From a virus, in IMG/VR virus record IMGVR_UViG_3300031952_000027, positions 1 through 49,074 of that record: 49,074 nucleotides of DNA, one strand, 5' to 3'. The first letter of the stretch is position 1. Each line of letters begins with the position of its first letter. The position numbers and the translations under genes are program-made. Positions 16,339-49,074 of the stretch are shown one piece after another. Under the pieces are notes generated by a model. The model saw nothing but the letters and a program-made list of their open reading frames with translations. It searched no databases and was not told where the DNA came from.

Positions 16339-16359
16339 AAATTGTGCTGGCTTTAAGGA

Positions 16360-16710: not shown

Positions 16711-16916
16711 TTTTTCCTCCATTTCTTTTTTAAATCCTCAATTCTCTGCCAAAGCACCATCCCCCAACCCGCTATATCAATTATCTCCGCCTGAATTTCA
16801 TTCATTAGCTCTTTGGGATCTCGGCTAAAAGATTTATCCCCGTAGGAATAAAAACCTTTGAGCATTTTTTGGTCTAATAGTTTAACAAATTTTGGTAAAA
16901 CTTTTTTATAAATCAT
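16707..16916 (-). CDS. Small helical protein, unknown
   Basis: 69 residues from the ATG at 16916; the longer frame to 17162 is rejected because it lies inside the phosphoesterase gene. The motif ELMNEIQAEIIDIAGWGM (about 37-54) recalls the Glu/Asp-bearing helices of MazG-like nucleotide hydrolases, but the protein is too short to be sure. The ATG is preceded by an unusual double inverted-repeat leader (16919-16989). Confidence 0.6.
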   Translation of the reverse strand: MIYKKVLPKFVKLLDQKMLKGFYSYGDKSFSRDPKELMNEIQAEIIDIAGWGMVLWQRIEDLKKKWRKK

Positions 16917-16918
16917 AC

Positions 16919-16989
16919 AAAGAGAACGAGAGGAAGGCACCGCTTGTAATGCGTTCTCTTTTTTTGGACATTTAAGTCTTCCTCTCGTT
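16919..16989 (-). promoter_or_regulatory. Interleaved double inverted repeat before the start at 16916
   Basis: AAAGAGAACG (16919-16928) pairs with CGTTCTCTTT (16952-16961), and AACGAGAGGAAG (16925-16936) pairs with CTTCCTCTCGTT (16978-16989); both stems are perfect and share AACG, so they exclude one another. The order A-B-A'-B' and the position two bases from an ATG match the leader at 23298-23364. A mutually exclusive pair of stems suggests attenuation or start-codon control. Confidence 0.65.
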
Positions 16990-16999
16990 GTTAGCGAAC

Positions 17000-17773
17000 T
17001 TAGGCGGAAAAGGTGCGACCAGCATAGGTGAACTGGCCATTGATGATAATGGGAACGTAGTCGTTGAATAGCCCATCTTTCCTGATGTAGATAATTGCAA
17101 ATGCGTGGATCCACCTGTTGGGTCGGCCCCAGAGATACTGAGGCGACTTGTCGCAAAGGCAACCGATTGAAGAACAGGTGTGGTAGTCATTTGGATCTTC
17201 AACGTGGACCTTGGTGTAGAGTTGCCTATCATGGGTATGGCCGTACATAACGCTTTTCATGTAGGACTGAGAGGTCTTTTCTGCGTGGTATTTGTTGGTG
17301 TACTCACCATGGACTAAGGTCAACTTCCCAAGTTTCAGTTTGCCTCGTAAGGCAGATCCATGCTTTCCCCGGATGAGATAAGGGATTACATTCCAGCCAC
17401 GCTTTTTGAGCTTGAGAACATTCTCAATTTCTACCAACCCCTCTAATTGCGGGTTCGCTTCAACCAGTTGGTACTGCCAATCCTCATGATTTCCGAAAAG
17501 ATAATGCTTTTCTGCTTGTGGACAGAGCTTTTCCAGTGGTTCAAGAATGTCCTGTTTGAAGTTCTCGTAATCGTGAAGCAACCGCTTACCCTCAAATGCC
17601 TTGAGGTTGCCTTTCTCTCTCTTCCAGTGGTCAATACTCCGCATCTCAATTGCGTCTCCCAAGAGAACAAGGATATGCGGCTTGAACCACTTGATGAACT
17701 TCAGGACAGCAAACCAAGCTTTCTTGTTGAAATAGGGGTAATGAATGTCAGGAAGAACGATTACTTTTTTCAT
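17000..17773 (-). CDS. Calcineurin-like metallophosphoesterase
   Basis: 257 residues. Metal-binding motifs in order: D9-x-H11, GD at 39-40, GNHE at 94-97, VHG at 154-156 and GHTH at 178-181, the full two-metal set. It hydrolyses phosphoester bonds in nucleotides or nucleic acids. It starts inside the preceding gene (26-base overlap) with a GGAGG Shine-Dalgarno site (GGAGGTGAGAGATG). Phage versions often act in DNA metabolism or repair; the substrate is not visible. Confidence 0.9.
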   Translation of the reverse strand: MKKVIVLPDIHYPYFNKKAWFAVLKFIKWFKPHILVLLGDAIEMRSIDHWKREKGNLKAFEGKRLLHDYENFKQDILEPLEKLCPQAEKHYLFGNHEDWQYQLVEANPQLEGLVEIENVLKLKKRGWNVIPYLIRGKHGSALRGKLKLGKLTLVHGEYTNKYHAEKTSQSYMKSVMYGHTHDRQLYTKVHVEDPNDYHTCSSIGCLCDKSPQYLWGRPNRWIHAFAIIYIRKDGLFNDYVPIIINGQFTYAGRTFSA

Positions 17774-17921
17774 CTCTCACCTCCTCCGTGATGATACATC
17801 CATCTACTTTCGGACTGGCTCTGAATGATTCTGCGACCGTTTCACAGAACTTCTCGTCCGTAAATAGAATCTTGGAGACCTCTCCACTCTTCCAAAAGAT
17901 TGCCAGACAATACCATTTCAT
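17748..17921 (-). CDS. 57-residue protein, unknown
   Basis: Start chosen at ATG 17921 because GAGGAGG lies 5 bases before it and it overlaps the preceding stop as ATGA; the longer frame to 18002 lies inside the upstream gene. One hydrophobic start (KWYCLAIFWKSG), then a mixed alpha/beta body with a C-terminal acidic-basic tail. It belongs to a block of genes with classical Shine-Dalgarno sites. Confidence 0.6.
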   Translation of the reverse strand: MKWYCLAIFWKSGEVSKILFTDEKFCETVAESFRASPKVDGCIITEEVRDEKSNRSS

Positions 17922-18178
17922 TTTTTCCTCCTCATAGAAAGGGTTAAACAAATACCGGAACCGATTGCCCCACCCAAAGCTCCCGACAGGAGCAAAAACC
18001 ATTCCTTTGGGTGATTTATCACATAAGCGGACACACCAACCAACAACAGCTCCTCAACAAAGACAACATACATTGTCTTGGCTATTTTTCCGTTGGCAAT
18101 AAACCAAGTCCGCAGTGTTGCCGCTGACCACTGCAGAAGCCCCGCCACAAAATAGAGCAGAAGTTTTACAATAGTCAT
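17918..18178 (-). CDS. Small membrane protein with about three spans
   Basis: 86 residues with hydrophobic stretches at about 4-20, 36-54 and 60-78 and a basic C-terminus. AAGGAGG precedes the ATG by about 5 bases. Sitting between a membrane-anchored transglycosylase gene (18211) and small cytoplasmic genes, it may be a holin of a second lysis pair, or a membrane protein unrelated to lysis. Confidence 0.6.
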   Translation of the reverse strand: MTIVKLLLYFVAGLLQWSAATLRTWFIANGKIAKTMYVVFVEELLLVGVSAYVINHPKEWFLLLSGALGGAIGSGICLTLSMRRKK

Positions 18179-18210: not shown

Positions 18211-18639
18211 TTATTTGATTCCCAAAATCCGAGCACACGACCAATAAGAACTAAATCCTTTTTCCAGCGCCAATGTTAAAAATCTTATTTGGTCGTGCGG
18301 ACTATTAATATCACCCTTAAATCCCATTTTTTTTGAAAGGTAGTCCCAAGTTCTTTCCTGAACCTGAATCAATCCATAAGCCGGGTAGATATAATTCAAA
18401 TCACCTTTGGCGGTTTCAACCCATTGGCTCTCGCAAGAAATTATGGCATATACTTGGGAGCTAACTTCAACTGCTTTATGCGGAAACTCCATTGACTTCT
18501 CATTCTTCACCTCAAACCCATTGCTTTTTAAAGAGAGAAAAAACATAATAATCAGAAAAACAATCAATGCTAAAATCCATCTCCACATCTGTGGCTTTTT
18601 TGTTTCTCTTGGTGAGTATTCTGGTAAAATAGTTCCCAT
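18211..18639 (-). CDS. Membrane-anchored lytic transglycosylase-like protein
   Basis: 142 residues from ATG 18639, with AGGA just upstream; a GTG at 18663 is possible. After about 18 polar residues comes one hydrophobic span (about 19-36), then a compact lysozyme-like domain: IISCESQW (about 68-75) with the catalytic Glu, YPAYGLIQVQERTWD, and FSSYWSCARILG at the end. It cuts glycan strands of peptidoglycan at the outer face of the membrane. The neighbour at 17918 may be its membrane partner. Confidence 0.75.
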   Translation of the reverse strand: MGTILPEYSPRETKKPQMWRWILALIVFLIIMFFLSLKSNGFEVKNEKSMEFPHKAVEVSSQVYAIISCESQWVETAKGDLNYIYPAYGLIQVQERTWDYLSKKMGFKGDINSPHDQIRFLTLALEKGFSSYWSCARILGIK

Positions 18640-18778
18640 ATTCCTACCAGCTTCTGCCCACACAAGGTCGGCAGTTATCTCGCAGGCGAGTGATCGGGTC
18701 GGCGTTTCTCCAAGTAAATGAAGTTCTGACCCGCCCTCCTTTTATTAAAACAAGCAAGATTTAAACTGGTAGGAATAT
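18638..18778. repeat. GC-richer element bounded by 13-bp inverted repeats
   Basis: ATATTCCTACCAG at 18638-18650 and CTGGTAGGAATAT at 18766-18778 are perfect inverted copies enclosing 115 bases with distinctly higher GC, containing hairpins CTCGC/GCGAG (about 18698-18709) and CGGGTC/GACCCG. The left end overlaps the start of the gene at 18639, so it also supplies its leader. No target duplication is obvious. Candidates are a miniature mobile element or a structured regulatory RNA. Confidence 0.55.
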
Positions 18779-23488: not shown

Positions 23489-23884
23489 TCAATATGTTTT
23501 TGTAAAACATGTCCAAGGATTAAATCCTCTTTTTTGATAAAGCTTATACGCCTCTAATATATTATATTGATAATCATAATATCTTTCGTCATATTGTCTA
23601 TTGAGTTGAAATACGCCATAAGATGAATAAATTGTGATACCCCGTTCTTTTGCCTTCGTTTCGGGATTGTAGGCGCGAGGATTTAATCCGCTTTCACACT
23701 TAGCAACGGCAATGGCAGTATTTATAGGCCAGTCATATTTAGATATTTCTGTGATAATTTCTTTTTTCAATTCTAAGTCCATTGTATTTACCATTAAATC
23801 GGCCAATGTCTTTTGTTCCGGAACGGGAATTTCACTTATTGAATATACAAAAGAATCTCTGAATAAATCAGAATTAGTAGTCAT
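23489..23884 (-). CDS. Lytic transglycosylase/lysozyme-like endolysin
   Basis: 131 residues from ATG 23884. AVAKCESGLNPRAYNPE (about 59-75) holds the catalytic Glu, and SSYGVFQLN and NPWTCF near the end complete a small transglycosylase fold. The same frame continues 18 codons upstream to an ATT at 23938 and would add a strongly hydrophobic segment (ILIVVILGAFLF), with the AGG of the previous stop close by. The extended form would be exported or membrane-anchored. It follows the holin gene. Confidence 0.75.
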   Translation of the reverse strand: MTTNSDLFRDSFVYSISEIPVPEQKTLADLMVNTMDLELKKEIITEISKYDWPINTAIAVAKCESGLNPRAYNPETKAKERGITIYSSYGVFQLNRQYDERYYDYQYNILEAYKLYQKRGFNPWTCFTKTY

Positions 23885-23941: not shown

Positions 23942-24172
23942 CTATTCCCCCTTACCTAACTGGCCCCGCGAATTGGTAAAAAGATTCTTTCCAAGATAAG
24001 CGATCAAAGTCGTAATAGCTATCTGTAAAATCGCAGACAAATCCGCAGCGCTTATATTGAGTCCTTTTTCGTTTAATATGTCAATCAGAAAAGTAAGAAC
24101 CGCAGAAATGATGGCCAATAATAGACCTTTCCCGAAGTCTCCCCAATTGAGAGTTAAAAATGTACTATTCAT
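23942..24172 (-). CDS. Holin
   Basis: 76 residues. Two hydrophobic spans (about 16-33 and 46-63) joined by a short polar loop, and a charged C-terminal tail with NSRGQLGKGE, the pattern of class II phage holins that open the membrane at the end of infection. It lies between the papain-like peptidase and transglycosylase genes. No Shine-Dalgarno site; leader AAAAATTATATG. Confidence 0.75.
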   Translation of the reverse strand: MNSTFLTLNWGDFGKGLLLAIISAVLTFLIDILNEKGLNISAADLSAILQIAITTLIAYLGKNLFTNSRGQLGKGE

Positions 24173-32340: not shown

Positions 32341-34884
32341 TTACCAAATATATTGTTGTAAAATATAAGAACCAGCAGAACCATTTCCACCATTACCTCC
32401 GTTTTTAGCTCTGTTTATTCCGCCTATCCCACCTGTTCCGCCAATTACCGAACAAGAAGTTAATGTCCCTGTTAAAGTTCCCTTATAAAGGACTATAACA
32501 GTCCCACCAGCTCCGCCTCCACCAGCTCCACCGCCTCTTGGATAATTACCACCACTATCATTTCCTCCTGCTTCTCCGTCTGTTCCATTCATTCCTTCTG
32601 CCTCAATAGTTGTTGTGCCTGAAAAAGTTAAATTTCCAGCGATTTCTAAAATCAATGCTCCACCACCAGCACCACCCGCCCCACCATCCCCATTATAACT
32701 CATACTATCTTCATCTCCTCCTGCTCCACCTCCGCCGCCTGCTCCACAAGAAGCAAAATATGTTTTTCTATAATTATTTAAATCAAATAGTCCAGCAAAG
32801 TTTGTTTGTTTCAAGCCCTTGGCAAAAAGTCCACTTTCATTGGATGTTCCAGCAGTCCCGTTTGTTCCGTCTGTTAATTGTCCTCCTCCTCCCCCTCCAT
32901 TTCCACCTGTTCCGTCTTGTGCCCCTCCACCACTACCATAATGAATATTTTCACTATCAAATAATCCAGTTGGACTATTCCCATTACCGCCATTTGTAGC
33001 TGGTGTAGCTCCCACACCTGCTGTTCCTGCCGTTCCCCCTGAAGCCCCTGTCTGTCCGCCAGTAGAATCATTACCTATTTTTATCATTGTGCCATTTCCA
33101 ATACTTAAATCTCCACTACATTTTATAATAATAAGAGTTCCATTGGCGTGTGGATTGGTAAAGGTCATATGAACCGCTGAAGCCAATGTTATGCTTGAAT
33201 AATTTTTAACCACAACCAATGCACTGCCTAAATCTATCCCGCCGCCAGCATGTGCCCCATCTGAACCATCACCGCCAAATGCCACTGGAACATCAGCATC
33301 CCAAGCCAATGTTTTCCACGCTCCATTATATCCTTTAAAAACATCCAAGGCAGTATCGTAAAAAATCTGACCATCTGTTCCCGCTGGTTCACTCGCCAAT
33401 CTTGGAAGCTTTAAACCTAATCCAGAATTAAGTGTATTTCCAGTGTCAGTAGCTATCCAATTACTTCCGTCCCAAAAACCTAAATTCCCACTACCAGAAC
33501 TTGTCTCTCCTGCTTTTTGTCCATCGGAGACATATATTAAAGAACCCGCCTGAACCGCTGTTGTATAAAAAACTTCTAATGTGATATGGTCAACACTCAA
33601 TGTTGTCCCTGAACCCAAATTTGAACATTGAATATCTAAAACTAAATAAGTATCCGTAATTGTATCTGTGTTCCAAGTATAAGGAGAAATGTTTGTCCAT
33701 AAATCAGTCCCGTCCCCAAATGTTAGCGTTGTATCACTTCCATTGTTCGGCGTTGCTGTTTTGGCTGTGCTCCAAACTGTTCCACCATCGGGACTTAATC
33801 TAACGGCTACTTCCATGTTTGCGGCATCTCCTTTACACTCTACTTTAACTCTTAAACCAAGTATGGTTGAACCGTGCGGAATTACAGGAGTTTCAGGAGC
33901 TCCTAATCCAAATGTCTTATATTGCTGTTTTAATCCTGCGGTTGTTGTAGTGGCATAAACATTATTGCTTGAATAAGCATTTGTCGGATTTGTCCAATTT
34001 GCTGTTCCGATTGCAGAAGGACTCAACGTGGTAGTCGGACTTGTTGCGGGTGCTCCTGCCAACGTATAAGACCCCAACTGCAAAGACCCGATAGCCGCTA
34101 CTACGCCTTTAACTAAAATACTTGTTCCATCAGAAGCTACAAATTGAGTAGATGAACCCAGATTGTTAAACTTTGCTATACCATTTTTTAAAACATACGC
34201 TTTAGCGTTAGCTATACTTGAAGTAAAATTCGCTTGAGTACAACCCCAAAAAGTATCTCCATCTGATTCAACATGAAAAGAGTTTGCGGTTATATCCTCG
34301 TCGGGAATGTGTAATTCTGAAGCTGTTATCGTTCCCGCTATGTTCGCATTCGTAGCAAATAAAGTTCCATCAATATCTATGTAAAAGTTTTTGGCGTGGA
34401 ACGAAGAATTTGTGCCATCAGAATAAATCGTCATATCTCCCGCGTTTGCTGTATATCCTGAATGGTCTTCTGTCCCCGTGTAGATTGAAGTGGAATTTAT
34501 TGACCACCCGCCTATTGTTCCGGCAGTAGCCGTAAACGTTCCTTTGATATTAAAAGTGCCTGCGGACTGATCCCACAAGATACCTTGCGCACCAGCATAG
34601 TTTCCAATTGTAATATCTCCGACATTCGTGCCATCTATTTCTATTTTAAAGACCTGTGAACTTGAAGCATTGTAGGCAACAAATCCAATTGTTGGATCCC
34701 ACTCTGGCCTTATTTCCACCCTTGCTCCGGAATCATTGCTCTTATAGGCAGCACCAGAGATTGTTCCTCCAACGATTATCGAAACTCCAGCCGGTGCAAT
34801 ACCAGTAGATTCATCGGTTATTAGTTCGAACACATCCGTAAGTGTTCGTTCTGGAACAACCAGTTGTGTAAATAATTCTGTCAT
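32341..34884 (-). CDS. Tail fibre/adhesin with glycine-rich C-terminal region
   Basis: 847 residues. The N-terminal part (about 1-450) is made of beta-rich repeats typical of fibre shafts; a LysGlyTyrAsnGlyAlaTrpLysThrLeu segment (about 520) precedes a Gly-rich region of about 200 residues with repeated GGAGG, GGNGG and GGGGGAGG tracts. Such tracts can stack into polyglycine-II sandwiches like the receptor-binding tip of T-even gp38. It should bind the host surface. Its neighbours are the tail adaptor and ejection genes. Confidence 0.7.
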   Translation of the reverse strand: MTELFTQLVVPERTLTDVFELITDESTGIAPAGVSIIVGGTISGAAYKSNDSGARVEIRPEWDPTIGFVAYNASSSQVFKIEIDGTNVGDITIGNYAGAQGILWDQSAGTFNIKGTFTATAGTIGGWSINSTSIYTGTEDHSGYTANAGDMTIYSDGTNSSFHAKNFYIDIDGTLFATNANIAGTITASELHIPDEDITANSFHVESDGDTFWGCTQANFTSSIANAKAYVLKNGIAKFNNLGSSTQFVASDGTSILVKGVVAAIGSLQLGSYTLAGAPATSPTTTLSPSAIGTANWTNPTNAYSSNNVYATTTTAGLKQQYKTFGLGAPETPVIPHGSTILGLRVKVECKGDAANMEVAVRLSPDGGTVWSTAKTATPNNGSDTTLTFGDGTDLWTNISPYTWNTDTITDTYLVLDIQCSNLGSGTTLSVDHITLEVFYTTAVQAGSLIYVSDGQKAGETSSGSGNLGFWDGSNWIATDTGNTLNSGLGLKLPRLASEPAGTDGQIFYDTALDVFKGYNGAWKTLAWDADVPVAFGGDGSDGAHAGGGIDLGSALVVVKNYSSITLASAVHMTFTNPHANGTLIIIKCSGDLSIGNGTMIKIGNDSTGGQTGASGGTAGTAGVGATPATNGGNGNSPTGLFDSENIHYGSGGGAQDGTGGNGGGGGGQLTDGTNGTAGTSNESGLFAKGLKQTNFAGLFDLNNYRKTYFASCGAGGGGGAGGDEDSMSYNGDGGAGGAGGGALILEIAGNLTFSGTTTIEAEGMNGTDGEAGGNDSGGNYPRGGGAGGGGAGGTVIVLYKGTLTGTLTSCSVIGGTGGIGGINRAKNGGNGGNGSAGSYILQQYIW

Positions 34885-36122: not shown

Positions 36123-37592
36123 TTAATTAATTTTTATCCAAATTCCCGTCATTAAAAGGGTTCTTATTTTAAAAGGATTGGTCGTACTCCCATTAGTCCA
36201 CGAAAAATCTATCCTAAAGTCATCACATTGTAATCCTCCATTATAAATCTTCCTGAAAGTGGAAGAATCTGAAGCCGAATACGCAACCTGATCTAACGCC
36301 AATGTTGAAGCGCCTTGATTATATGTAATAGTCGTGTCCACTTTCGCACCAGTTGCAAGAGTTTCGAATCCCAACTGAACAAGATCAATTTGACATTTCC
36401 AGCCAGGTATTCTCATATTATATGCCATAGTATTATATCTGGCTCCCTTACTATATCCCGATGCTTTTGCTATATTATAATTCGTGCTTGCGGTTGAACT
36501 GATTAACGGCGTTCCAAATGGAGCAGCCCAAGTTCCTGCAGTAGCGTATGTTGGAGTTATAAATCTAAAGAAATTAACCGGTAAATCTTTATCTTTTGAT
36601 CCCCACAATACCAATACATTGCTTGAAATCCAACCAATAAAACCATCATAGAATCCCACCTGTGCCTGATTTGGTAATGATCCACTGTAGCGTCTAATTC
36701 GTTCTAATCTTGTTCCATTAATGTATCCGAAGTTATATCCTCCTGTAGTTATGGCGTCTCTCCACCAGACATAGGTAATTCCATTCTCGGTAAATAGGGC
36801 GCCGATTTCTCCTCCGACCTCTATTGGATCTCCTTCCCACGAACTTGATACTCCGTTCCATCTATAAATAGCAGATAAGTTATAATTAGACCCCGTAACA
36901 TTCGGTCTGTTAAGTGCAATGATCACCCTATTCTCGTTCCACGAAACCGATACGGTCTTTGAATCGGTAAAAAAGTCCAGTGCCGTAACATTCTTGGTCG
37001 TTCCGTCGACCGTAGCTATATAATATCCATTAGTAATATAGGCAACATCGTCTCCTCCTACTATCCCATAATGAGGCGCGTCTTGAAGCTGTGCCGCTCC
37101 CGTACCAACTGTTGATCCCCAGTTGTCGTCCCAAGTTGTATCGTTTGTAAGCAATCCGATGTCTCCGTCTACTCCTGTATCGTTCCAAAAAACAAGAACC
37201 TTTCCTTGATAGATAAGCACATCGGTAGAAACGTTAGCCGTTCCGGCAGTAATAGTTTTAGGAAAATTAGTGTTAGATACGGCTGTTGAGGTTATTTTAA
37301 AAACACTCGCAGCTCCACAGGCATAAGCAGCATCACTTGATAATGCATGTTTGGTAATTCCGACAATAAGATTAGACCCCAATTCACCGGCTTGTGTCCC
37401 GCCCGTCAAAGATGTGTCAACCAGCATTCCCGGACCCTGAGTAAGAACGTTCGGGTCTCGTAAATCAATATCTGTTATGGTAGTTGCTTGATTCTTGTTC
37501 CCATAAAAAGACCAACCATTATCAAAATACGCGGGACAGAAACCACCCCACTTACTTATTGAGATTGTCCACGGTTCTGGTTCTTTAACCAT
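36123..37592 (-). CDS. Beta-propeller-like tail nozzle protein
   Basis: 489 residues, almost wholly beta by composition, with regularly spaced Trp and Gly-Asp/Asn turns about every 45-60 residues (for example VLVFWND, VAYITNGYYIATVD, ITYVWWRD, VLVLWGS), like propeller blades. T7 gp12 and P22 hub proteins have this shape and form the short tail tube. It precedes the adaptor-like gene in the operon. A function as nozzle is inferred. Confidence 0.6.
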   Translation of the reverse strand: MVKEPEPWTISISKWGGFCPAYFDNGWSFYGNKNQATTITDIDLRDPNVLTQGPGMLVDTSLTGGTQAGELGSNLIVGITKHALSSDAAYACGAASVFKITSTAVSNTNFPKTITAGTANVSTDVLIYQGKVLVFWNDTGVDGDIGLLTNDTTWDDNWGSTVGTGAAQLQDAPHYGIVGGDDVAYITNGYYIATVDGTTKNVTALDFFTDSKTVSVSWNENRVIIALNRPNVTGSNYNLSAIYRWNGVSSSWEGDPIEVGGEIGALFTENGITYVWWRDAITTGGYNFGYINGTRLERIRRYSGSLPNQAQVGFYDGFIGWISSNVLVLWGSKDKDLPVNFFRFITPTYATAGTWAAPFGTPLISSTASTNYNIAKASGYSKGARYNTMAYNMRIPGWKCQIDLVQLGFETLATGAKVDTTITYNQGASTLALDQVAYSASDSSTFRKIYNGGLQCDDFRIDFSWTNGSTTNPFKIRTLLMTGIWIKIN

Positions 37593-37594
37593 AT

Positions 37595-38398
37595 TTAGAA
37601 TCCCTTAATTCTTATATCTACTGAACCCGATGCGTAATTTGAAGACTTGACGAATAGCCACTTCAAGTTGTTTGCGTAAACCTGGTAGATGCTATTTGTG
37701 TCTGTTCCGGAAATCGTAATTCCTGTATCTCCTTCAAGTTCTGTGTTGTTCTGAAGGTCATAGACAGCAACGTTGTCATATCTGTTCGTACTTGATTGCG
37801 AAGCATACCAATCTGGTGCTGTCTCCATATCTGATCCAACAATCTTGAATCCAACGCTTGCCACTTCTTCTGCGTTGATAGTAATAGTCTTGAACTCATA
37901 ACTACCCGCGTCAAATGCGACAGCGTCTTTCATTTCTTGTGTAAAGAAGTATTTGCCATCACTTCCAGACGCCGTTGAAGCAAAATCAACTTCAGATCCA
38001 CCTTTTGTAGTAGATACTTGAAATCTATCGCTGTTGCTCGCAGTCGTTCCAAGATCAGCATAAGAAGTACTGACTACGTAGTATGCTGTATCCTCTGTGA
38101 GAATGCTGTCGTCAAACGAACTAGCCGTATTGAACATTACAACGTTTCCAACAGAAGGACTCGCGAATACTGCACCCGGATCTCCTTCAATATAGATGGC
38201 ATTGTCAGAAACGTCGGCAGAAAATGACGCCAAGCTTTGTTGTTGACCATCAAAGACTACAAACTCTGCCTGTGCGCTGTCTCCTCCACTCGATCTTCCG
38301 CTGAAGATTCCCGTTTCGTTCTTTGCTTGTACTCCAAGGAATACTAAGATTCCAATCAGTAGAACGATTTCAATCCAGTGTAATTTTATGTTTTGCAT
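37595..38398 (-). CDS. Membrane-anchored beta-rich structural protein
   Basis: 267 residues. N-terminal span about 9-24 (hydrophobic Ile/Leu/Val) with basic residues before it. The remainder is a beta-rich Ser/Thr/Asp/Asn-rich domain. Its C-terminal 60 residues (VAVYDLQNNTELEGDTGITISG, NNLKWLFVKSS) match the gene at 46563 at the same spacing, so the two are paralogues. AGGAGG lies about 27 bases before its ATG, with in-frame stops between. It belongs to the anchored cassette. Confidence 0.7.
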   Translation of the reverse strand: MQNIKLHWIEIVLLIGILVFLGVQAKNETGIFSGRSSGGDSAQAEFVVFDGQQQSLASFSADVSDNAIYIEGDPGAVFASPSVGNVVMFNTASSFDDSILTEDTAYYVVSTSYADLGTTASNSDRFQVSTTKGGSEVDFASTASGSDGKYFFTQEMKDAVAFDAGSYEFKTITINAEEVASVGFKIVGSDMETAPDWYASQSSTNRYDNVAVYDLQNNTELEGDTGITISGTDTNSIYQVYANNLKWLFVKSSNYASGSVDIRIKGF

Positions 38399-38477
38399 GT
38401 TAGTTTATTAATTATTATTTCTTATCCTCCTTTAATTTTTAACTATTTAAAACGAATACTCCCTGCTTTAATTCTTA

Positions 38478-38503
38478 TGCGGTTTCTTAACAAGAAATCC
38501 GCA
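38478..38503 (-). other. Hairpin between two anchored-protein genes
   Basis: TGCGGTTTCTT (38478-38488) and AAGAAATCCGCA (38492-38503) pair with a one-base bulge and a 3-base loop. No U-run follows in either direction, so it is more likely a stability or processing hairpin than a terminator. Confidence 0.5.
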
Positions 38504-38511
38504 GAAAGAAA

Positions 38512-40197
38512 TCACTCAATAATTATCGGTGGACTATCTATAATCTCCCCTTCTCCTGTCCAGCCCGGCCCACTCGCCGCAGTAGTAAACTTATTATATC
38601 CCTGTGAAGCATCTCCTAAACTCCACGCACCCCAAGTATTTGAACCTGAAGCGTCTTTTGCTCTTACTCTCCAGTAGTAATCTGTTGAAGCCGTTAATCC
38701 TGCGGCCGCCTGAACTGAATAAGTTATCTGATTTCCTGAAGGAAAAGGAGAGGGAGAGCCTGTACCTGCAAAATGTGAGGGGGATTCGGTGGAGGAGAGG
38801 GTGTCAAGGAGAGGAGTACCAGAATATCCATATATACTTAGTACCCCAGAGGCATCCATAGTTGCAAAGGTATATGGGCCTCCCGAAAAAGCATCTCCAC
38901 TTTTTCCAAGTACCCCACCTCCACCAGTAGTATCTTCTTCAACATATCCAGAAGTGTTCGTAAATATTCCCAAAATATCGCCAATTTCTGCGGTAATACT
39001 TAACCTACCAACAATTACTTTTGAACCAGCAGTTATTTCACCTAAAGTTGCAAAACTTCTCACTTGCCAACTTGTTCCACTACCATAAAATGTTCCTATC
39101 TTACCACCCGCTGGAATAGTAATTGAAGCCCATATTTCAACAACATTTATAGTTCCAGCACTAGCGACAGGGTTGTTTACATCAAGATATGTATAATTAG
39201 CGCCCACTTGTGCACCCCTATCTGATGCGGTACTACCAACATCTATAGTTCCCACCACACTTGCAAAAGTATCTGCCGTATCCACCTGTACCTCATATTC
39301 CACTTCATCTGCATTAGCGTCTGTTCCTGTAAAGAGTAAATCTGGGGTTACACTTACTCCTGTGGCGTTGTTGTCGGGGGTATCAATGGTTGTTGTGGGG
39401 GCAAGGTTTATCTTAAACGCACCAACTATCATTACGTTTCTTGAGTCATCTTCTACTGTGGCGTGGAAGTTTCCTGTATTTGCGGCAGTAGCTTTAATTG
39501 CGTCTGCAATAGCCAAGCCGTGGTCAGCTCCTGTTGTGGTAATATCATCAGAACGTTCTAACCAAGTATCTGCGGTAGGGGCGGTAGTAGTATCCGTTGC
39601 CCCAGAATCCACGTCTGGCTTGGTAGCGGCATCAAAGCCTACGGTATTATCATTATCTCCTATGGATACCATCGCCACTATGAGTTCATTTGCTTCTGCG
39701 GTAGTAATGTCTCCAGCAAGAGTATCAAAAGCAACTACAGCTAAAGTGCCTGCCTGCCCCGTATCGTAAGCATATCCATATCCCGAATAAGCAATAATCC
39801 TTGCCTGAAGCACATCGCCAGCAGTTCTGTGTCCCACTAAATCGGGGGCAGAAGCCCCACGAGTAATATAATACATTTTCCCAGAAGCAATACCGTTTGA
39901 AATATCCGTATCTCCTTCGTTTTGTGCCGAAGCTACGACTCCCCAGCTATCCAATCCTGTTATTGCGGCATTTCCTCTATACCCTATGAAAGCAACCATT
40001 AAGTCTCCCGAGGCAGCACCTGCTGGCTCCGTAAGGGTAAAGTCTCCAGTTGCGTCTTCAACTAATGTTCCGATTTTCGGAACTCCCCACGCCCCCAATG
40101 TTTCCTCTGTTCTTACTGGTCGTGTTTTCAGATAAGCAAAACCGCTTACATCAAGCACCACTAAGATTATTAAAATTGTAATCAGTATTTTTCTCAT
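38512..40197 (-). CDS. Membrane-anchored fibre-like protein with FN3-like domain
   Basis: 561 residues. Residues about 4-20 form a hydrophobic signal anchor after a basic start (MRK). The body is Thr/Gly/Ala/Asp-rich, beta by composition. Residues about 274-330 and 475-560 carry PxDNATGVSVTPDLLF and DYYWRVRAKDASGSNTWGAWS wording of fibronectin III-type domains. The start overlaps the stop of the giant gene as ATGA. Virion appendage or phage-coded surface protein. Confidence 0.68.
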   Translation of the reverse strand: MRKILITILIILVVLDVSGFAYLKTRPVRTEETLGAWGVPKIGTLVEDATGDFTLTEPAGAASGDLMVAFIGYRGNAAITGLDSWGVVASAQNEGDTDISNGIASGKMYYITRGASAPDLVGHRTAGDVLQARIIAYSGYGYAYDTGQAGTLAVVAFDTLAGDITTAEANELIVAMVSIGDNDNTVGFDAATKPDVDSGATDTTTAPTADTWLERSDDITTTGADHGLAIADAIKATAANTGNFHATVEDDSRNVMIVGAFKINLAPTTTIDTPDNNATGVSVTPDLLFTGTDANADEVEYEVQVDTADTFASVVGTIDVGSTASDRGAQVGANYTYLDVNNPVASAGTINVVEIWASITIPAGGKIGTFYGSGTSWQVRSFATLGEITAGSKVIVGRLSITAEIGDILGIFTNTSGYVEEDTTGGGGVLGKSGDAFSGGPYTFATMDASGVLSIYGYSGTPLLDTLSSTESPSHFAGTGSPSPFPSGNQITYSVQAAAGLTASTDYYWRVRAKDASGSNTWGAWSLGDASQGYNKFTTAASGPGWTGEGEIIDSPPIIIE

Positions 40198-43100
40198 TGT
40201 GCTGTATATTTAAAGTGAACATTTATATGAACTGAGTCCACGTCCCCCGAAACATCTCCTTGTGAAATTGAAGCCAAAACCCAATCCAATGCGTCTATTG
40301 AAGCGTTTGAAAGAGAGCCATCATCAGCAACATCGGAGGTCGTACAAGTAATTGCCGCGTCAGTCGTAGCGCAGTTTGCTCCATTGGCGTCACATTCCTC
40401 AATCTCAATCTGTGCCGAAGTCCCGCTGGTTACAAAACAATCAATCGCAGTTATGGTAATCGGTTCGTGAAATTGTACATATTGCTGGTTATTCGTCAGG
40501 TCAAATGAGCCAGAACTATAATTGAAAGCGAAAGATTTTGTCGCCATTAAGACATTTACTTCGTCTGAATAGAATAAGAATTGCCCGCCAGTGGTATCAA
40601 CGGCTACCTCTCCATTGGCATCTACTGTTGGTGCGGTGGTATTCGGTATCTCTAAAGAAGTCGCCCCTCCCATATCCCAGACACCAGAATTTATAGTCCA
40701 GTTCCCAGAAGTAGATGCAGTGCCGTCAAATTCCACGCTTTGCCCTGTTGAAAATTGCCAACTATGGCTCGATAAAACATTTCCCGTAGCGCTTGTAGTC
40801 CATAGTTGGTCTGTTCCTAAAGCGAATATTCCTGCGATATTCAAGCCTCCATCAGAAAGAAAATCAGTTCCTGCGTTTCCGATATTTACTAACAACCCCA
40901 CACTACTAAAGTCCCATGTTCCTTTATTGATTGTCCAATTACCTGAAGTAGACGCAGTTCCATCAAACGAAAGATTGCCAGTTGTAAATCCCCAACTCGC
41001 ACTGGAAAACATCTCACTTGTCTTGGATGTATTCCATAGTTGGCTTGTTCCTAATGTAAAAGAACTTACTGCTGCCAAGTTCCACACCCCGTTATTCGCT
41101 GTCCAGTTATTTGACGTAGAAACTACACCATCAAATTCTACCGTTCCAGTGGTAAATTGCCAATTTCCACTTGCAAGACCAGCTCCTTCAATATCAAGTA
41201 TTCCATCCATAGTAATCGCACCTATTCCAGTCATATCTCCCGTAGTTGAAATGTCCCAATCGCTTGAATTAAGATATAAAGTGTCACCGTTGTCTCCGAT
41301 AGTTAAAGCACCCCCCGGATTTATCGCGAATACCCCTGTAGTAGTAAAAGAGGTTGTAAGTTCTGGGGAAGTATCAAATACTATATGTCCACTTCCTGTT
41401 TCGTCATCAAATATAGCCAAGAGTTCAGAAGAAGCATCCATCTCGTCATTATTTAAAACTGCTATTCCTGCTTCGGTGATTGCTCCTACGAAAGTTGAAG
41501 CTCCGCCTACCCAAAGAGTAGAAGAAATAGAGGCAGTCCCATAAATATCTATATTCCCTGTTTCGTTGACGAATAAAGTATCCACTCCGTTTGCTCCTGC
41601 AAAACTGCCAGAAGCTCCCATTACAAGTTCTGCCCATTTGGGAGTTGAATTTCCCACGATTAAACTGCCCTGAGAAACAGAAGCCAGCAACACATCGGTA
41701 TGCCAATCAGTATTCAAAAGTCCGTGAACCTCTCCTCCCGCTCCGCCCGTGTTGTCGTCATCTCCACAAGTAAACACGCCGGTATCGCTCCATCCCAAGG
41801 TCTGGGTATCTCCATCACAATCAACAAGTCCCCCGCCAAAAATAGTAGAAAAACTTAAAGAAGTTATCTGTCCCGATGGCGTTGAAAAATCTTCAGAAGC
41901 AGATGCGTGAACAACGGCAAATGGGTCGTCTACATCAAAGTCAGTGCCATTTAAAGTTAGATTATCGCCCCCTGTATATGTAGTATCATCATCCGCCTCA
42001 CAGGCAAGGTCGTTCCCGTTTAAATAATAGTGATTCCCTGCGGCACAGGCAGTTGTAAAACTTATGTCTGCCTCTTGTATTGAATCATCGGGAAGGTTAA
42101 TTGTCCCAAAACTCGCAGATGTTATATCGGCAGAATCAATCGTAAGTGTTGACGCAGATGCATTATCTCCTGCCGTTAGGAAGTAAATATCCTCAATCTC
42201 TGTAGCGTTAAGACAGTCAGTGCAGGTTAAGTCGCCAGTCAAGGTCCCCGTTAAAGTGCTTGTCCATAAGTTTGTAATACTCATAGAGGCAACTGTCGGG
42301 TCAATGAGATAAATCGGGTTTGTAGCATCACTTATAAGAAAACTATTGGAAGCACCAACCGCCAAAGGAGTCCAAGTTGTGCCAGAACCATAGATTAAAG
42401 CCCCAGCAGAAGCAGAAGCGTTTGATACGTCATTATGGCCGAAATCGCTTAAAAGTCCGTGTGTGGCAAGTCCACCTGCGGCAGTAGCATCGGTGCCACA
42501 AGAAAGCAAACCATTTACATCGCTATCAATCGTGTCGCAGGATTTAAGATTTGTAAAGTTTATTGTGCTGTCTACGTAAAAAGCACCAGAAACAGAAGCA
42601 ACCCCCAAACTTGTCTGTCCTGAAATAGAAGTAGCATCATCTATGCTCCAAGAAGCGGAAGTCCTAATAATATCGCTTCCAAATTCCAATAAAACATCTG
42701 TTGTTGCCAAATCTATTGTCCAAGTTTGCGTAGCCGAACCAGAAGCAAAAGTAGGATTATTAAATTCTGTAAGGTCTAAATCCAAAGTCCCCGAATTATT
42801 ATCTATTCCTTCTCCCCCCACCAAGGCACTAAAATCGGCAATCTCTGGCACATCATCATCGGCATTACAGGCAAAATCATTTCCATTGACATAAAGTTTC
42901 TGTGTCGAAGTGCATGCGGTATTCATATCAATGTCTTCTTCGGCCACCGAATCATTGGGAAAGTTTAAAGTTGTCGCCGAAAGTGAAGCAATCACTCCTG
43001 TATCCGCCTCAAAACCAGCACTAATTGAAACCCAAGTGCCAGTGTCTCCATTATTTAAAAGAAAATCATCATCAACATCAAAGTCAGTTCCGGTAAGAGT

Positions 43101-45410
43101 CAAATGGTCTCCTCCTGTGTAGGTTGTATCTTTGTCCACATAGTCGGCCCAAACCGGATTTGTGCCATCGCTTTGTAAAAAACTATCCGAAGCGCCCACT
43201 GCCAAAGGAGTCCAAGTTGTACCTGCACCGTAGATTAAAGCACCAGCAGAAGCTGAAGCATTTGAGACATCATTATGACCCCAGTCGCTTAATAGTCCGT
43301 GAGAAACGGGTGTTCCTGTTGCGGCATTATCAGTTCCGCATTTTAAAAGTCCCGTAGAATCGGTGTCTATCGTATCGCAATTAGGTGTATTAAATAAATA
43401 TACCGCCCCTGAAATAGATGCCGTGCTATCACTTTCAAAACTTGAACTTGAATGCGTCCAGTCAATATGGGCATTCACACTTGCTTGATGCCCCCAAAGG
43501 GTTTCATAATCGCTTCCCAGTAAATAACCTCCAAATGTTTGAGAAGCATAATCTATGTCAAATGCAGTCCCAGTTAAGAATAATGGGTCTGTTGCCGTAT
43601 AAGTCGTGTTATCGTCTGTTTCGCAGGCAAGATTAGTTCCCGAAAGATAATAGTGACTTCCCGCTGCACAAGCGGTTGAAAAACTTATATCTGCTTCGGC
43701 TATGCTATCATCGGGAAAGTTAAGCGTGGTAGCCGAAAGAGAAGTTATCTGTCCGTAATTAGTTTCAAAGTCATTGGAGATTGTTGCATAATTAGCATAA
43801 AACCTACCATCGGCATAAATAGCATATCCACTTACACTTTTTCCATAAACGCCATGACTTGTAGTACTCTCTCCATAAACACCATAACCAGTGGTGCTTC
43901 CTCCATAAACGCCAGATGCACCTTCGTTATTTATTCCAAAAATACCATTGTCTTCATCACTTTTTCCATAAATGGCAACTCCCGAAGTTGAGGCAAATAA
44001 ACCCATAGGATATGTATTGTCAAATTCGGGTTCGTTGCTAATAATCACTTGTGGAGTATAATCTATTAAAGCATAAACCTCTGCCTGCGTTATGTTTCCT
44101 ATTTGAAGATCATCTGAAACAGAAGCGTGATTCAATCCTAAATAATTACTCGTATCATTCCAACTCACACTTGAACCATCGCTTATTAAAAAACTATTAG
44201 ATGCACCATTGACCAATTCTTTCCAAGAATCTCCCTCTCCGACTATTAAAGAACCAACAGAGGCAGAAGCCAGAACAACATCCGTGTGCCAATCAGTATT
44301 CAAAAGTCCGTGGACTTCACCTCCTGCTCCGCCCGTGTCGTCATCTCCGCAACTAAACACTCCAGTATCTGACCAAGCAATCGTTTGATTGTCTGCATCA
44401 CAGTCAGTTAAACTGAATCCCCATAGATTCGTTCCTGATATAGAAGCGATGTTCGCCTGTGCTGCTTGAAAATCTGCAGAAAGTGAAACCCAAGTTCCTG
44501 TGTCTCCATTATTTAAAAGAAAGTCATCGTCTACATCAAAATCTGTGCCGGTCAATGTCAGGTGGTCTCCTCCTGTATAGGTGGTATCGTCATCTGTCTC
44601 GCAGGCCAGATTAGTACCATTCAAATAATAGTGACTACCAGCAGCACAAGCTGTTGAGAATGAAATGTCTGCTTCCGCTATTGAGTCATCTGGAAAATTA
44701 AGAGTTGTTGCTGATAAAGATGTAATCTGTCCACTTGGAGTTGTGAAGTCTTCAGAAGCAGAAACATGTGTTCCTGTAAGAGTCACTACCGTAAACGGAT
44801 CATCTATGTCAAAGTCGGTTCCCGTAAGAGTAAGCATATCTCCAGCAGTATAAGTTGTATTAGCATCAACATAATCTGCCCAGAACGCTGTTGTGCCATC
44901 GCTCATTAAAAACGATTGTGAGGCTCCTATGGTAAGTTCTGACCACTTAGGGGTAGCATTTCCAATAATTAAAGAACCGGCAGAAACGGATGCTAACAAA
45001 GCATCACTATGCCAATCACTATCCAATATACTATGCGGAATGGCAGAACCGGTTCCTCCTGTCGCTGCTGCCCAAGCAGGCAATCCAGAGGAGAACGTTA
45101 AGACGTTTCCTTCTGAACCAGATGCAAGTAATCTTGAAAGTGTTCCCGGACCTGAAGCATAAAGTAATTCTCCCACAGAATAAGAGGCAAGTCCGGTCCC
45201 TCCCTGGTATGGAAACAAAACTGTAGCACCAAAAACATCTTGTGGTTCAGTCCCCTGCCAGTTTAAATTAACGTCTTCTAAATCATTAAAATTCAAAACT
45301 CTGACCGGATAACCAGTGTCTTTTGCCGCATAGTATCGTCCAGCAATGACCCCGACAATCAAAACCGTCAGGCATGCGGCGATTATTAAAATGTTTCTTT
45401 TTTGTTTCAT
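40194..45410 (-). CDS. Giant membrane-anchored fibre protein with internal repeats
   Basis: 1738 residues. A basic start and a hydrophobic span (about 6-23) predict a type II membrane anchor. The rest is fibre-like: FPYQGGTGLASYSVGELLYASG (about 66-87, in parts) is the typical entry phrase of tail fibres. A unit of WH-D, LASxSAGSLIxG, GASxSFLxSDG and TYTGGDHLTLTGTDF recurs about five times, a TLNFPDDSIAEADISFSTACA unit about four times, and a GNWTINxGxWD unit about four times near the end. The start overlaps the preceding stop as ATGA. Confidence 0.75.
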   Translation of the reverse strand: MKQKRNILIIAACLTVLIVGVIAGRYYAAKDTGYPVRVLNFNDLEDVNLNWQGTEPQDVFGATVLFPYQGGTGLASYSVGELLYASGPGTLSRLLASGSEGNVLTFSSGLPAWAAATGGTGSAIPHSILDSDWHSDALLASVSAGSLIIGNATPKWSELTIGASQSFLMSDGTTAFWADYVDANTTYTAGDMLTLTGTDFDIDDPFTVVTLTGTHVSASEDFTTPSGQITSLSATTLNFPDDSIAEADISFSTACAAGSHYYLNGTNLACETDDDTTYTGGDHLTLTGTDFDVDDDFLLNNGDTGTWVSLSADFQAAQANIASISGTNLWGFSLTDCDADNQTIAWSDTGVFSCGDDDTGGAGGEVHGLLNTDWHTDVVLASASVGSLIVGEGDSWKELVNGASNSFLISDGSSVSWNDTSNYLGLNHASVSDDLQIGNITQAEVYALIDYTPQVIISNEPEFDNTYPMGLFASTSGVAIYGKSDEDNGIFGINNEGASGVYGGSTTGYGVYGESTTSHGVYGKSVSGYAIYADGRFYANYATISNDFETNYGQITSLSATTLNFPDDSIAEADISFSTACAAGSHYYLSGTNLACETDDNTTYTATDPLFLTGTAFDIDYASQTFGGYLLGSDYETLWGHQASVNAHIDWTHSSSSFESDSTASISGAVYLFNTPNCDTIDTDSTGLLKCGTDNAATGTPVSHGLLSDWGHNDVSNASASAGALIYGAGTTWTPLAVGASDSFLQSDGTNPVWADYVDKDTTYTGGDHLTLTGTDFDVDDDFLLNNGDTGTWVSISAGFEADTGVIASLSATTLNFPNDSVAEEDIDMNTACTSTQKLYVNGNDFACNADDDVPEIADFSALVGGEGIDNNSGTLDLDLTEFNNPTFASGSATQTWTIDLATTDVLLEFGSDIIRTSASWSIDDATSISGQTSLGVASVSGAFYVDSTINFTNLKSCDTIDSDVNGLLSCGTDATAAGGLATHGLLSDFGHNDVSNASASAGALIYGSGTTWTPLAVGASNSFLISDATNPIYLIDPTVASMSITNLWTSTLTGTLTGDLTCTDCLNATEIEDIYFLTAGDNASASTLTIDSADITSASFGTINLPDDSIQEADISFTTACAAGNHYYLNGNDLACEADDDTTYTGGDNLTLNGTDFDVDDPFAVVHASASEDFSTPSGQITSLSFSTIFGGGLVDCDGDTQTLGWSDTGVFTCGDDDNTGGAGGEVHGLLNTDWHTDVLLASVSQGSLIVGNSTPKWAELVMGASGSFAGANGVDTLFVNETGNIDIYGTASISSTLWVGGASTFVGAITEAGIAVLNNDEMDASSELLAIFDDETGSGHIVFDTSPELTTSFTTTGVFAINPGGALTIGDNGDTLYLNSSDWDISTTGDMTGIGAITMDGILDIEGAGLASGNWQFTTGTVEFDGVVSTSNNWTANNGVWNLAAVSSFTLGTSQLWNTSKTSEMFSSASWGFTTGNLSFDGTASTSGNWTINKGTWDFSSVGLLVNIGNAGTDFLSDGGLNIAGIFALGTDQLWTTSATGNVLSSHSWQFSTGQSVEFDGTASTSGNWTINSGVWDMGGATSLEIPNTTAPTVDANGEVAVDTTGGQFLFYSDEVNVLMATKSFAFNYSSGSFDLTNNQQYVQFHEPITITAIDCFVTSGTSAQIEIEECDANGANCATTDAAITCTTSDVADDGSLSNASIDALDWVLASISQGDVSGDVDSVHINVHFKYTAQ

Positions 45411-45679
45411 GGTTCTACGCGATAATCAACTTTTAAAAGCGATCCCGTTGGAGGAGCAATCAAAAGCGTAAGCGTGTCTCCTGAAATCGTATAATCTTCA
45501 TTCACCATTAACTCTGCGCCATTCAATGTTACCTCAAGACTGCCCGCTGGTTTAGGCGAGTTAGCTAAAGTAAATGTTGTGTTGCTGTCGTTAATTGACC
45601 CAACTGGAATCTCGCCAGTATAAAACAAAGTTCCATCTTCCATCCGCTGGACAATGTTCGACGTTCCTGTTCTGCCCAT
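45407..45679 (-). CDS. Small beta-rich structural protein
   Basis: 90 residues. The wording IPVGSINDSNTTFTLANSPKP, GSLEVTLNGAELMV and YTISGDTLTL (in parts, about 25-75) matches the small domain found in many phage tail proteins and fibres as a separate module. Its stop overlaps the giant fibre's ATG (ATGA), so it may be a subunit or chaperone-like partner for that protein. Confidence 0.65.
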   Translation of the reverse strand: MGRTGTSNIVQRMEDGTLFYTGEIPVGSINDSNTTFTLANSPKPAGSLEVTLNGAELMVNEDYTISGDTLTLLIAPPTGSLLKVDYRVEP

Positions 45680-45683
45680 GTTT

Positions 45684-46553
45684 TTAGATGACCTTGATTG
45701 GCATTTTTAATTTATCAAAATGCTTTTGCAGAGTCTTTGCTAGTGTATTTACCTGATTTTCTCTCTCGCCGAATGTTAGTTCTTTTTGAGCCAGAGATTC
45801 TTCCCTCGCTTTCAGTTCCACCTCCTTCTTATTTACCGGCGTAAGTCGTTTCTGTATCGTCTCATCAAGAACTTTCAGTTCAGAATTTTTCTTTACAATC
45901 TCACCATTAAGAGAATCGATGTTGGCCTTGACCTCTTCTTCCTTTCGTTTCCAATTCTCAATTCGTGTTCCGTATTCACCTGCCTCTGTTTTCTTTTTCT
46001 GTTCAATTTCATTGTCTAAATCGAGCAGTTGTTTCTTCCTTAAAACAATGGCATCGTCAAGATCCATTGCATTTTTGGCATGAACATTAACATTCTCCGT
46101 ATCCTTCTCAATGTCTGCCAAAAGTCCCATCTTAACTCTCTCTAGTCCAGCAATCTCTTCTTTAAGCTCATCTTTCTCTTTAAGAATTTTATCTCTCTCG
46201 GCCCTAAGAACTTCGGTTTTCTTCTCTGCCTCGACAAGTTCATCTCGAATCTTTTTAACATCAACAATTTCCAACTTTACTTTATCAAGTGCCGTTTGTG
46301 CGTCAACGATCTTGCCCTTAATGTCAACAAGTTTGTCGTTCTCCGCAAGAACGTCTAGTCGAATTTTGTCCAACTTCTTGTCAAGATCGATAAGCTCTTG
46401 AGATTTATTCTTAAGGGTTGTTTTTTTACTCTCAAGATCTTTCTCTATCTTTTCAATCTCAAGTTTCTCTTTGTTGATTTCTCCAAAGAGTTTTTTCTTT
46501 TCGGTTTTAACAGCAACATTAGTTGGTTGTGCTCCAAACTTTTTGCGTCTCAT
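45684..46553 (-). CDS. Long coiled-coil protein
   Basis: 289 residues. From about 18 to 280 it is an almost continuous heptad-rich coiled coil (Lys/Glu/Leu/Ile) with few breaks, ending in a basic helix. No membrane span or signal. It lies between a small beta protein and the fibre cassette, so it may form a rigid stalk, connect fibre parts, or act inside the head. Family not recognised. Confidence 0.65.
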   Translation of the reverse strand: MRRKKFGAQPTNVAVKTEKKKLFGEINKEKLEIEKIEKDLESKKTTLKNKSQELIDLDKKLDKIRLDVLAENDKLVDIKGKIVDAQTALDKVKLEIVDVKKIRDELVEAEKKTEVLRAERDKILKEKDELKEEIAGLERVKMGLLADIEKDTENVNVHAKNAMDLDDAIVLRKKQLLDLDNEIEQKKKTEAGEYGTRIENWKRKEEEVKANIDSLNGEIVKKNSELKVLDETIQKRLTPVNKKEVELKAREESLAQKELTFGERENQVNTLAKTLQKHFDKLKMPIKVI

Positions 46554-46562
46554 ATATTTTAA

Positions 46563-47204
46563 TTAGTCATTATACAACCTACAACGAACCGAAACATCTC
46601 CATCTGTCCACGCCGTGATTATCACATTCAACCATCTAATGGCATTAACATTCAGTTCAAGTTGTCGAACATCTGCGCCGTCGAGACTAATCCCAGTATC
46701 ACCATCAATCGAAGAACCGTCCTCTAAATCAATAACTTCAATATAGTCCCAGGCATTTGACTGAGACTGTGCGGCTGAAAAGTCTGGGGCGTCATCTGTC
46801 GAAGTCACGGAATCTCCAAGAGACCCCTGAATCTTTAGAGTCATTGTCGCGTCTGTACCAACTTCCACGCTTAAGATAGCGTGCTGAAAGTCCTGACAAA
46901 GGATACTTCTACCAATGTCGTGTTCAGTCCAAGTATGTGTTCCAGTTCCTGTGCTTGTAATGTCTATTTCCGGTCCTTCTGGCGTTGCAGCAAGCTTAAA
47001 CGTATTCGTTGCCTTGTCTCTGATATAATAGATAGTCGCAAGTGCTAATCCAGCAGGAAGTGTAGTAGTTGTCGTTAAAACAACTCTGTCGCCATTTTCA
47101 AGTCCGTGAGCAGTTGAAGTACAGATGTTTGTGACTGCTGCGGTAAATGTTGCTGTTGACAAACCTTGAGACTTCATTACATCGTAATCTACAAAATCTC
47201 TCAT
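46563..47204 (-). CDS. Beta-rich structural protein (soluble paralogue of the 37595 gene)
   Basis: 213 residues. The C-terminal third (YIEVIDLEDGSSIDGDTGISL, LNVNAIRWLNVIITAW, DGDVSVRCRLYND in parts) follows the same order and spacing as the protein at 37595, and the middle HGLENGDRVVLTT, YYIRD, FKLAATP wording also corresponds. It has no N-terminal membrane span. Two copies, one soluble and one anchored, in the same late operon suggest a virion part and a membrane counterpart. Confidence 0.65.
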   Translation of the reverse strand: MRDFVDYDVMKSQGLSTATFTAAVTNICTSTAHGLENGDRVVLTTTTTLPAGLALATIYYIRDKATNTFKLAATPEGPEIDITSTGTGTHTWTEHDIGRSILCQDFQHAILSVEVGTDATMTLKIQGSLGDSVTSTDDAPDFSAAQSQSNAWDYIEVIDLEDGSSIDGDTGISLDGADVRQLELNVNAIRWLNVIITAWTDGDVSVRCRLYND

Positions 47205-48767: not shown

Positions 48768-49074
48768 TTACGCAGCGCCGTCTCCGGTACTAAACTTAAT
48801 CCACTGACCGGTAACGATTGTAATACCATATCCTGCGCGGACACGATACTCCCAGTCGTCTGTCTGTACGTCTTCTCCGTTAGAACCTGCAGTAGGTGCA
48901 ATCATATGAGGTGCCTCCCAAACTCCTAAGTAGAAATTTGAAAGTTTGCTCGATGCGATTCCCCAGTAATACCTCTTAGTGGTGTCTCTTACACCGGCAG
49001 CGGTAAAAGCGATTCTTGGAAGAATAACGTGCTTATACGAACCCGAGTACGGATTAATAACGCCAGCGTGAGCA
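48768..49074 (-). CDS. Major capsid protein, C-terminal part (right-hand copy)
   Basis: The segment holds the final 17 codons and stop of the capsid gene (48768-48820), followed by 254 bases that repeat the window start. Read with bases 1-961 on the circle it completes a 337-residue protein ending Phe-Ser-Thr-Gly-Asp-Gly-Ala-Ala. In this copy codon 279 reads Lys because of T at 48947. Confidence 0.85.
   Translation of the reverse strand, partial: AHAGVINPYSGSYKHVILPRIAFTAAGVRDTTKRYYWGIASSKLSNFYLGVWEAPHMIAPTAGSNGEDVQTDDWEYRVRAGYGITIVTGQWIKFSTGDGAA
48821..49074. repeat. Terminal direct repeat, right copy (pairs with 1-254)
   Basis: Identical to bases 1-254 apart from T at 48947 (G at 127). 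It lies inside the capsid gene. See the left copy for interpretation. Confidence 0.95.

Follow-up and report, generated by a model that had tools for sequence, protein, structure and literature searches.

In the standard picture, the fibres of tailed phages are assembled in the cytoplasm and carry no export signals. PblA and PblB of the Streptococcus mitis phage SM1 are tail-module proteins that act at the cell surface as adhesins; they have also been reported in the phage tail, and they reach the surface by holin- and lysin-mediated release followed by choline-mediated binding to the wall (PMC7600539). XepA and YomS, from the Bacillus subtilis prophages PBSX and SPbeta, have a C2-like beta-sandwich fold; XepA has no transmembrane segment, belongs to a lytic cassette, is exported during phage development and was not found in particles (PMC6834076). 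Large surface-targeted proteins with adhesion domains have been described in a patescibacterium (PMC13059738), and putative adhesion genes have been reported in Patescibacteriota phages (PMC12911398). Here we analyse three consecutive genes for beta-rich proteins with hydrophobic N-termini (the cassette) in a tailed phage from an environmental metagenome, IMG/VR virus record IMGVR_UViG_3300031952_000027, whose whole stretch of 49,074 bases is called the window.

Like the genes of PblA and PblB, the cassette lies in a virion structural module, as seen in the gene order of the window and of two related contigs, G001 and G431. It differs from them in that each of its proteins carries an N-terminal export signal and anchor, which suggests another route to the surface. 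The smallest cassette protein, of 267 amino acids (aa), has a body that weakly matches the XepA/YomS fold, and unlike XepA it has an N-terminal span. The HTVC010P-like podoviruses (Pelagibacter phages) share about 47-49% terminase identity and the same general packaging and head gene order with the window phage, but N-terminal hydrophobic segments are absent from HTVC010P (0 of 24 open reading frames (ORFs) of at least 150 aa). The giant surface fibres of Patescibacteria (L129-L133, with tip homologues in L127 and L128) have a related shaft or tip and one N-proximal span, like the largest cassette protein. They are chromosomal, 2.8-4.3 thousand aa long and in several cases carry a DNA-binding-like domain before the span, whereas in the phage proteins the signal-anchor is short and the genes belong to the virion operon. 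In the open-licence literature searched, we found no account of a phage cassette in which fibre-like proteins carry export signals of their own. Our comparisons make it somewhat probable that the three genes form a fibre cassette whose products are made late, exported and, for the most part anchored in the membrane, displayed on the infected cell, because relatives keep export signals of unrelated sequence and the nearest cellular relatives are membrane-anchored fibres.

Hydrophobic N-termini of the three proteins

Hydrophobicity was measured as the Kyte-Doolittle maximum over 17 residues (KD17) within the first 45 residues, and the label signal-anchor is used here for hydrophobicity, charge and comparison across phages taken together. 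Three consecutive minus-strand genes, for proteins of 1738, 561 and 267 aa, had been predicted and were confirmed, with the following features:

40194..45410, minus strand: 1738-aa fibre-like protein (big fibre), with a signal-anchor, a spacer, a TVLFPxQGGTG mature start, a long repetitive beta shaft and a C-terminal tip
45339..45410, minus strand: N-terminal signal-anchor of the 1738-aa protein, MKQKRNILIIAACLTVLIVGVIAG (KD17 3.14; residues 7-24 uncharged)
45066..45239, minus strand: conserved mature fibre start, DVFGATVLFPYQGGTG...PAWAA (75-81% identical in two relatives)
40194..40685, minus strand: C-terminal tip domain, common to phage G002 and Patescibacteria chromosomal ORFs
38512..40197, minus strand: 561-aa anchored beta protein, its body swapped for an unrelated one in the nearest relative
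37595..38398, minus strand: 267-aa anchored beta-domain protein, its body a paralogue of an anchorless 213-aa protein

The original prediction gave each protein a fibre-type body, a basic start and one hydrophobic span. Each N-terminus does have one span (KD17 of 3.14, 2.81 and 2.51 in the 1738-, 561- and 267-aa proteins), and there is none elsewhere, the remainders reaching at most 1.44, 1.32 and 1.08. A basic start holds for the two larger proteins, with n-region charges of +4 and +3, and the 267-aa start, MQNIKLHWIE, is barely basic at a net charge of about +1. Uncharged runs extend over 18, 12 and 13 residues; the 561-aa span holds one aspartate and the 267-aa span begins with a glutamate, which makes these two the weaker signal-anchor cases. 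In the 1738-aa protein the charge after the span is +2. The arrangement has the sequence features of Sec signal proteins, namely positive charge at the start, then one hydrophobic run free of charges, and no further span, and it sets the cassette proteins apart from conventional virion fibres, which have no N-terminal membrane segment. The bodies are beta-rich as described; the 267-aa protein is a single beta-domain, not a long fibre, and its AlphaFold2 model has a helix (residues 4-27), a low-confidence linker and a beta body (mean predicted local distance difference test (pLDDT) score 70.6).

Chance hydrophobicity was rejected, as random draws of residues from the same protein rarely matched the N-terminal KD17 (1, 7 and 16 per 20,000 for the 1738-, 561- and 267-aa proteins). 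Of the 21 coding-strand ORFs that reach 200 aa, only these three have such N-termini, the next-highest KD17 being 1.69, and the chance that three special genes among 21 are consecutive is about 19/1330, or 1.4%. Mis-called starts were also rejected. The 1738- and 561-aa starts sit in 4-nucleotide ATGA overlaps with the preceding stop, those of equivalent genes in other phages do likewise, and the arrangement recurs in divergent phages, which means that these two hydrophobic ends are translated.

Export signals in other viral contigs

Counting the window, fibre-like proteins that begin with a signal-anchor or with a textbook signal peptide occur in eight viral contigs, usually at an equivalent position, and several of the eight have unrelated capsid genes. 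In the window, the cassette is flanked by genes for a 90-aa adaptor-like domain and a 489-aa beta-rich protein, both listed below. G001, a 48-kb phage whose capsid protein is 76% identical, has an equivalent cassette at the same place (1411, 476 and 253 aa, all anchored), in which the body of the middle protein is unrelated to the 561-aa protein. In G431, a homologue of the big fibre (866 aa, anchored) comes after the 90-aa gene, and the 489-aa homologue is immediately preceded by two 168-aa proteins, both anchored. G002, whose head genes have no matches to those of the window in protein comparison, encodes a 1274-aa anchored fibre directly after a protein ending in the 90-aa domain, followed by a second anchored protein. 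After its capsid gene, G029 has a row of at least three ORFs with anchors. The fibres of G004, G005 and the L157 contig begin with textbook cleavable signal peptides, and the cleavable-looking forms among the relatives are ...LPLFASA/VV, ...LVSSA/AT and ...GISQA/AT.

These contigs bear on the alternative that the cassette encodes ordinary virion fibres, whose hydrophobic N-terminal helix docks in the virion (tail or collar) and is never exported. Such docking would suit genes that lie inside the virion operon, with an adaptor-domain gene directly upstream in five phages; a constant N-terminus with a variable body is the usual layout of virion fibres, and the 267-aa anchor is strongly conserved in the closest relative. 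However, the signals of the G004, G005 and L157 equivalents would leave no helix to dock once cleaved, which favours export over a packed virion helix. The big fibres give a second contrast. Homologues of the 1738-aa protein lie at L002:8435-12670 and L147:10750-13350. The three big-fibre homologues are identical at 40-43 of 50 residues from the conserved FGxTVLxPxQGGTG start, a 21-residue piece of the mature start recurs at 57% in a further contig, and an export signal precedes every copy. Over the first 26 alignment columns, G431 shares only 8-9 of 23 residues with the big fibres of the window and G001. Thus, the G431 signal has retained its hydrophobicity while diverging in sequence (8/23), faster than the adjacent fibre start (40/50), and because of this difference we read the big fibre as pointing to selection for membrane targeting, not for a packed helix. 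In the window, ordinary fibre-like proteins (847, 489 and 407 aa) have no such segment, and we regard virion docking as unlikely.

Parts of the cassette appear to move between phages. The anchor of the 561-aa protein matches that of the second anchored protein of G002 at 28 of 29 residues and 85 of 90 nucleotides, and a 610-nucleotide tract, 88% identical between the window and G002, shows that the tip moved between the two phages as a unit with the anchor start behind it. Elsewhere, window positions 16134-17012 and 17766-17932 have 90% and 96% nucleotide identity to G002 (L093), and the protein of window 16360-16722 matches G002 at 100% over 116 of 120 residues. Together with the exchanged tract, these stretches suggest a shared host or gene pool for the two phages.

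Export signals of this kind are not a general trait of the terminase lineage, a possibility that was rejected in view of HTVC010P and of the rarity of such spans in terminase-related loci. Of 396 unique ORFs of at least 250 aa from viral loci collected through their terminase similarity, 4 had a single strong span at the N-terminus, and one of the four (L036) lies in G029, itself among the eight contigs. The cassette is also not universal among related contigs, since G432 (a related, incomplete contig) has an anchorless body paralogue directly before its 489-aa homologue. When viral contigs were scanned with the 267-aa protein and with anchor alignments, only the relative already known came up. 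PHROG, Pfam and PADLOC gave no above-chance match for the 1738-, 561- and 267-aa proteins, and the PDB gave no sequence relatives for the profiles made from the big fibre, from the 267-aa body family and from the 489-aa flank. The big fibre had no match in 50,697 phage and 72,556 plasmid records, nor did the tip in the same phage records.

Some further features were seen on these and other contigs. In G004, L098:17998-18527 has a signal-peptide start followed by glycine-rich, gp38-adhesin-like sequence, a possible exported fibre tip. At L139:6631-8413, the capsid gene is in two ORFs, split by an inserted endonuclease-like ORF, and L143:979-2562 is an ORF on a viral contig that looks GroEL-like by eye.

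Fibre relatives in Patescibacteria

A scan of 84,980 prokaryote species, made with two short patterns only, gave a Falkowbacteria (Patescibacteria) contig as the sole big-fibre match. The full big-fibre profile matched in 14 of 287 Patescibacteria genomes at E<=1e-6. Where full ORFs were read, the matching proteins are 2.8-4.3 thousand aa long with one membrane span near the N-terminus, and their neighbourhoods, on contigs as long as 1.2 Mb, contain ordinary chromosomal genes. Two patescibacterial ORFs share 44% and 41% identity with the window tip, whose profile matches in 2 of 380 genomes; on the contig of one of these ORFs, a DNA-polymerase-I-like gene follows. The phage host is probably a patescibacterium, inferred rather than demonstrated because the links are at the level of fibres only and a search of 380 Patescibacteria genomes found neither the portal nor the capsid gene of the window, an empty answer that shows little.

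The fold search with the tip gave weak jelly-roll-like matches only. Giant proteins in L129:5510-14497 and L130:7166-15619, and also in L109, L110, L121 and L125, begin by eye with a MerR/excisionase-like helix-turn-helix; in L129 and L130 one membrane span at about residues 214-223 and then a fibre shaft follow, possibly a DNA-binding domain fused to a surface fibre. L092:32-12293, on a Falkowbacteria contig, has ORFs for a fibre of 2710 aa, an anchored protein of 345 aa and a reverse-transcriptase-like protein, a neighbourhood that resembles a diversity-generating retroelement.

The homology of tip and shaft to chromosomal anchored fibres raises the possibility of conversion by host-type adhesins, in which the phage would carry patescibacterial surface fibres mainly to change attachment to partner cells. 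Large surface-targeted patescibacterial proteins are candidates for host recognition (PMC13059738), and the reported adhesion genes of Patescibacteriota phages (PMC12911398) fit the same picture. Against this, no integrase was recognised among the ORFs read, though no search was aimed at that family. The phage also looks lytic and has these genes in its late operon, and its patescibacterial host is unproven. We think conversion of this kind quite improbable.

Late operon and neighbouring genes

The ends of the window, positions 1-254 and 48821-49074, are 99.6% identical and lie inside a probable capsid gene that spans the join; on this overlap, the genome is probably complete and circularly permuted, despite its classification as linear. 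Its large terminase (446 aa) has 46.8-49.3% identity to records of HTVC010P-type Pelagibacter phages over about 90% of its length. The late genes run on the minus strand in the order terminase, putative portal, probable capsid, 342-, 213-, 289- and 90-aa proteins and then the cassette, with beta-rich or fibre-like proteins of 489, 407 and 847 aa downstream. This gene order puts the cassette in the late operon, which encodes the virion; the phage is tailed and its terminase is HTVC010P-like. No promoter or terminator setting the cassette apart was found, pattern counts being about those of shuffles. The neighbouring features are:

Minus strand, late operon: 662-aa protein, taken to be the portal
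46563..47204, minus strand: 213-aa anchorless paralogue of the 267-aa body, with tail-fibre-like PHROG matches
45684..46553, minus strand: 289-aa coiled-coil protein, kept between the 213- and 90-aa genes in relatives
45407..45679, minus strand: 90-aa adaptor-like beta domain, with a weak PHROG tail-fibre match (E=0.0012)
36123..37592, minus strand: 489-aa beta-rich protein, propeller-like by eye, without a hydrophobic N-terminus; the conserved downstream flank
32341..34884, minus strand: 847-aa ordinary fibre-like protein with a glycine-rich C-terminus, without a strong hydrophobic N-terminus (KD17 1.55); an internal contrast to the cassette
18211-18663, 23489-23884 and 23942-24172: candidate lysis genes, apart from the cassette

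As the 847-aa protein is fibre-like and has no N-terminal span, the phage appears to have ordinary fibres besides the cassette. The gene with the 90-aa domain stands directly upstream of the exported fibre gene in five phages, and in a sixth one inserted ORF separates them. Export signals, the virion-operon position and an adaptor-like neighbour could be reconciled if the proteins were first exported to the outside of the membrane and joined to virions at or after lysis, as virion fibres with a membrane stage; the original prediction had allowed for attachment after export. However, the membrane anchor would then need to be pulled out or cut, and tailed-phage particles assemble in the cytoplasm. 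We know of no established precedent for such fibres in tailed phages, and consider this route very doubtful.

The 267-aa protein raises a further alternative, that exported beta-domain proteins act on the membrane or wall in lysis or envelope weakening, like PBSX XepA, and are not adhesins. Its body has YomS (6i5o) as best fold match in the PDB (E=2.1e-3, template-modelling (TM) score 0.64 on the target) and XepA (6i56) as third (E 1.1e-2), none falling below 1e-3, for a query model with pLDDT 70.6. Since XepA is reported to be exported and absent from mature particles (PMC6834076), this weak likeness makes a lysis-related role for the 267-aa protein possible. As an account of the cassette it is highly improbable: the weak match concerns the smallest protein only, the shaft and tip of the 1738-aa protein look fibre-like, and the window has the separate candidate lysis genes listed above.

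Probable display on the infected cell and its possible use

The infected-cell surface, which the original prediction had suggested as a place of display, is the better-supported location, with signals kept across seven other contigs and anchored cellular relatives. As roles there, that prediction had proposed that the proteins might block other phages, change adhesion or bind partners of the host. Several observations weigh against it. The cassette sits within the virion operon, its adaptor-like neighbours weakly match tail-fibre families, and a probable virion protein (213 aa) is a paralogue of the 267-aa body. The 267-aa proteins of the window and G001 are near-identical over their first 37 residues, and the big-fibre anchors of these two phages are identical at 14 of 25 residues, as often in virion-attachment ends. 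The charge flanking the 561- and 267-aa spans leaves their orientation not clearly fixed. Expression from the late operon fits superinfection exclusion rather poorly, and the empty portal and capsid searches belong on the same side.

If the proteins are displayed, the Sec machinery of the host would insert them late in infection. The two larger ones, and probably also the 267-aa protein, would remain anchored in the cytoplasmic membrane with their bodies outside, and some relatives look able to cleave the signal, which would give a secreted fibre. If the host lacks an outer membrane and is, as seems probable, a patescibacterium, the 1738-aa fibre would project and present its tip, like the giant anchored fibres of the host. 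The displayed tip might then mask or occupy a surface partner used by this and other phages, with less superinfection or loss of progeny; alternatively, the displayed fibre may alter the adhesion of the infected cell. Masking of an adsorption partner by the tip, or altered adhesion, is the most likely use, and a weakly supported one. More broadly, and with a good deal less assurance, one might suppose that a widespread, largely uncultured group of tailed phages infecting Patescibacteria makes anchored fibres on the infected cell from the virion operon, exchanges tips and anchors mutually and with host fibres, and so alters the binding of the infected episymbiont or the entry of phages.

A recurrent cassette of this kind, spanning phages with unrelated capsids, would mean that some phages remodel the surface of the infected cell with fibre parts or that their fibre assembly has an unrecognised membrane stage. 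The partner-recognition proteins of Patescibacteria are largely unknown, and the fibre link would open both phage adsorption and episymbiont adhesion to testing.

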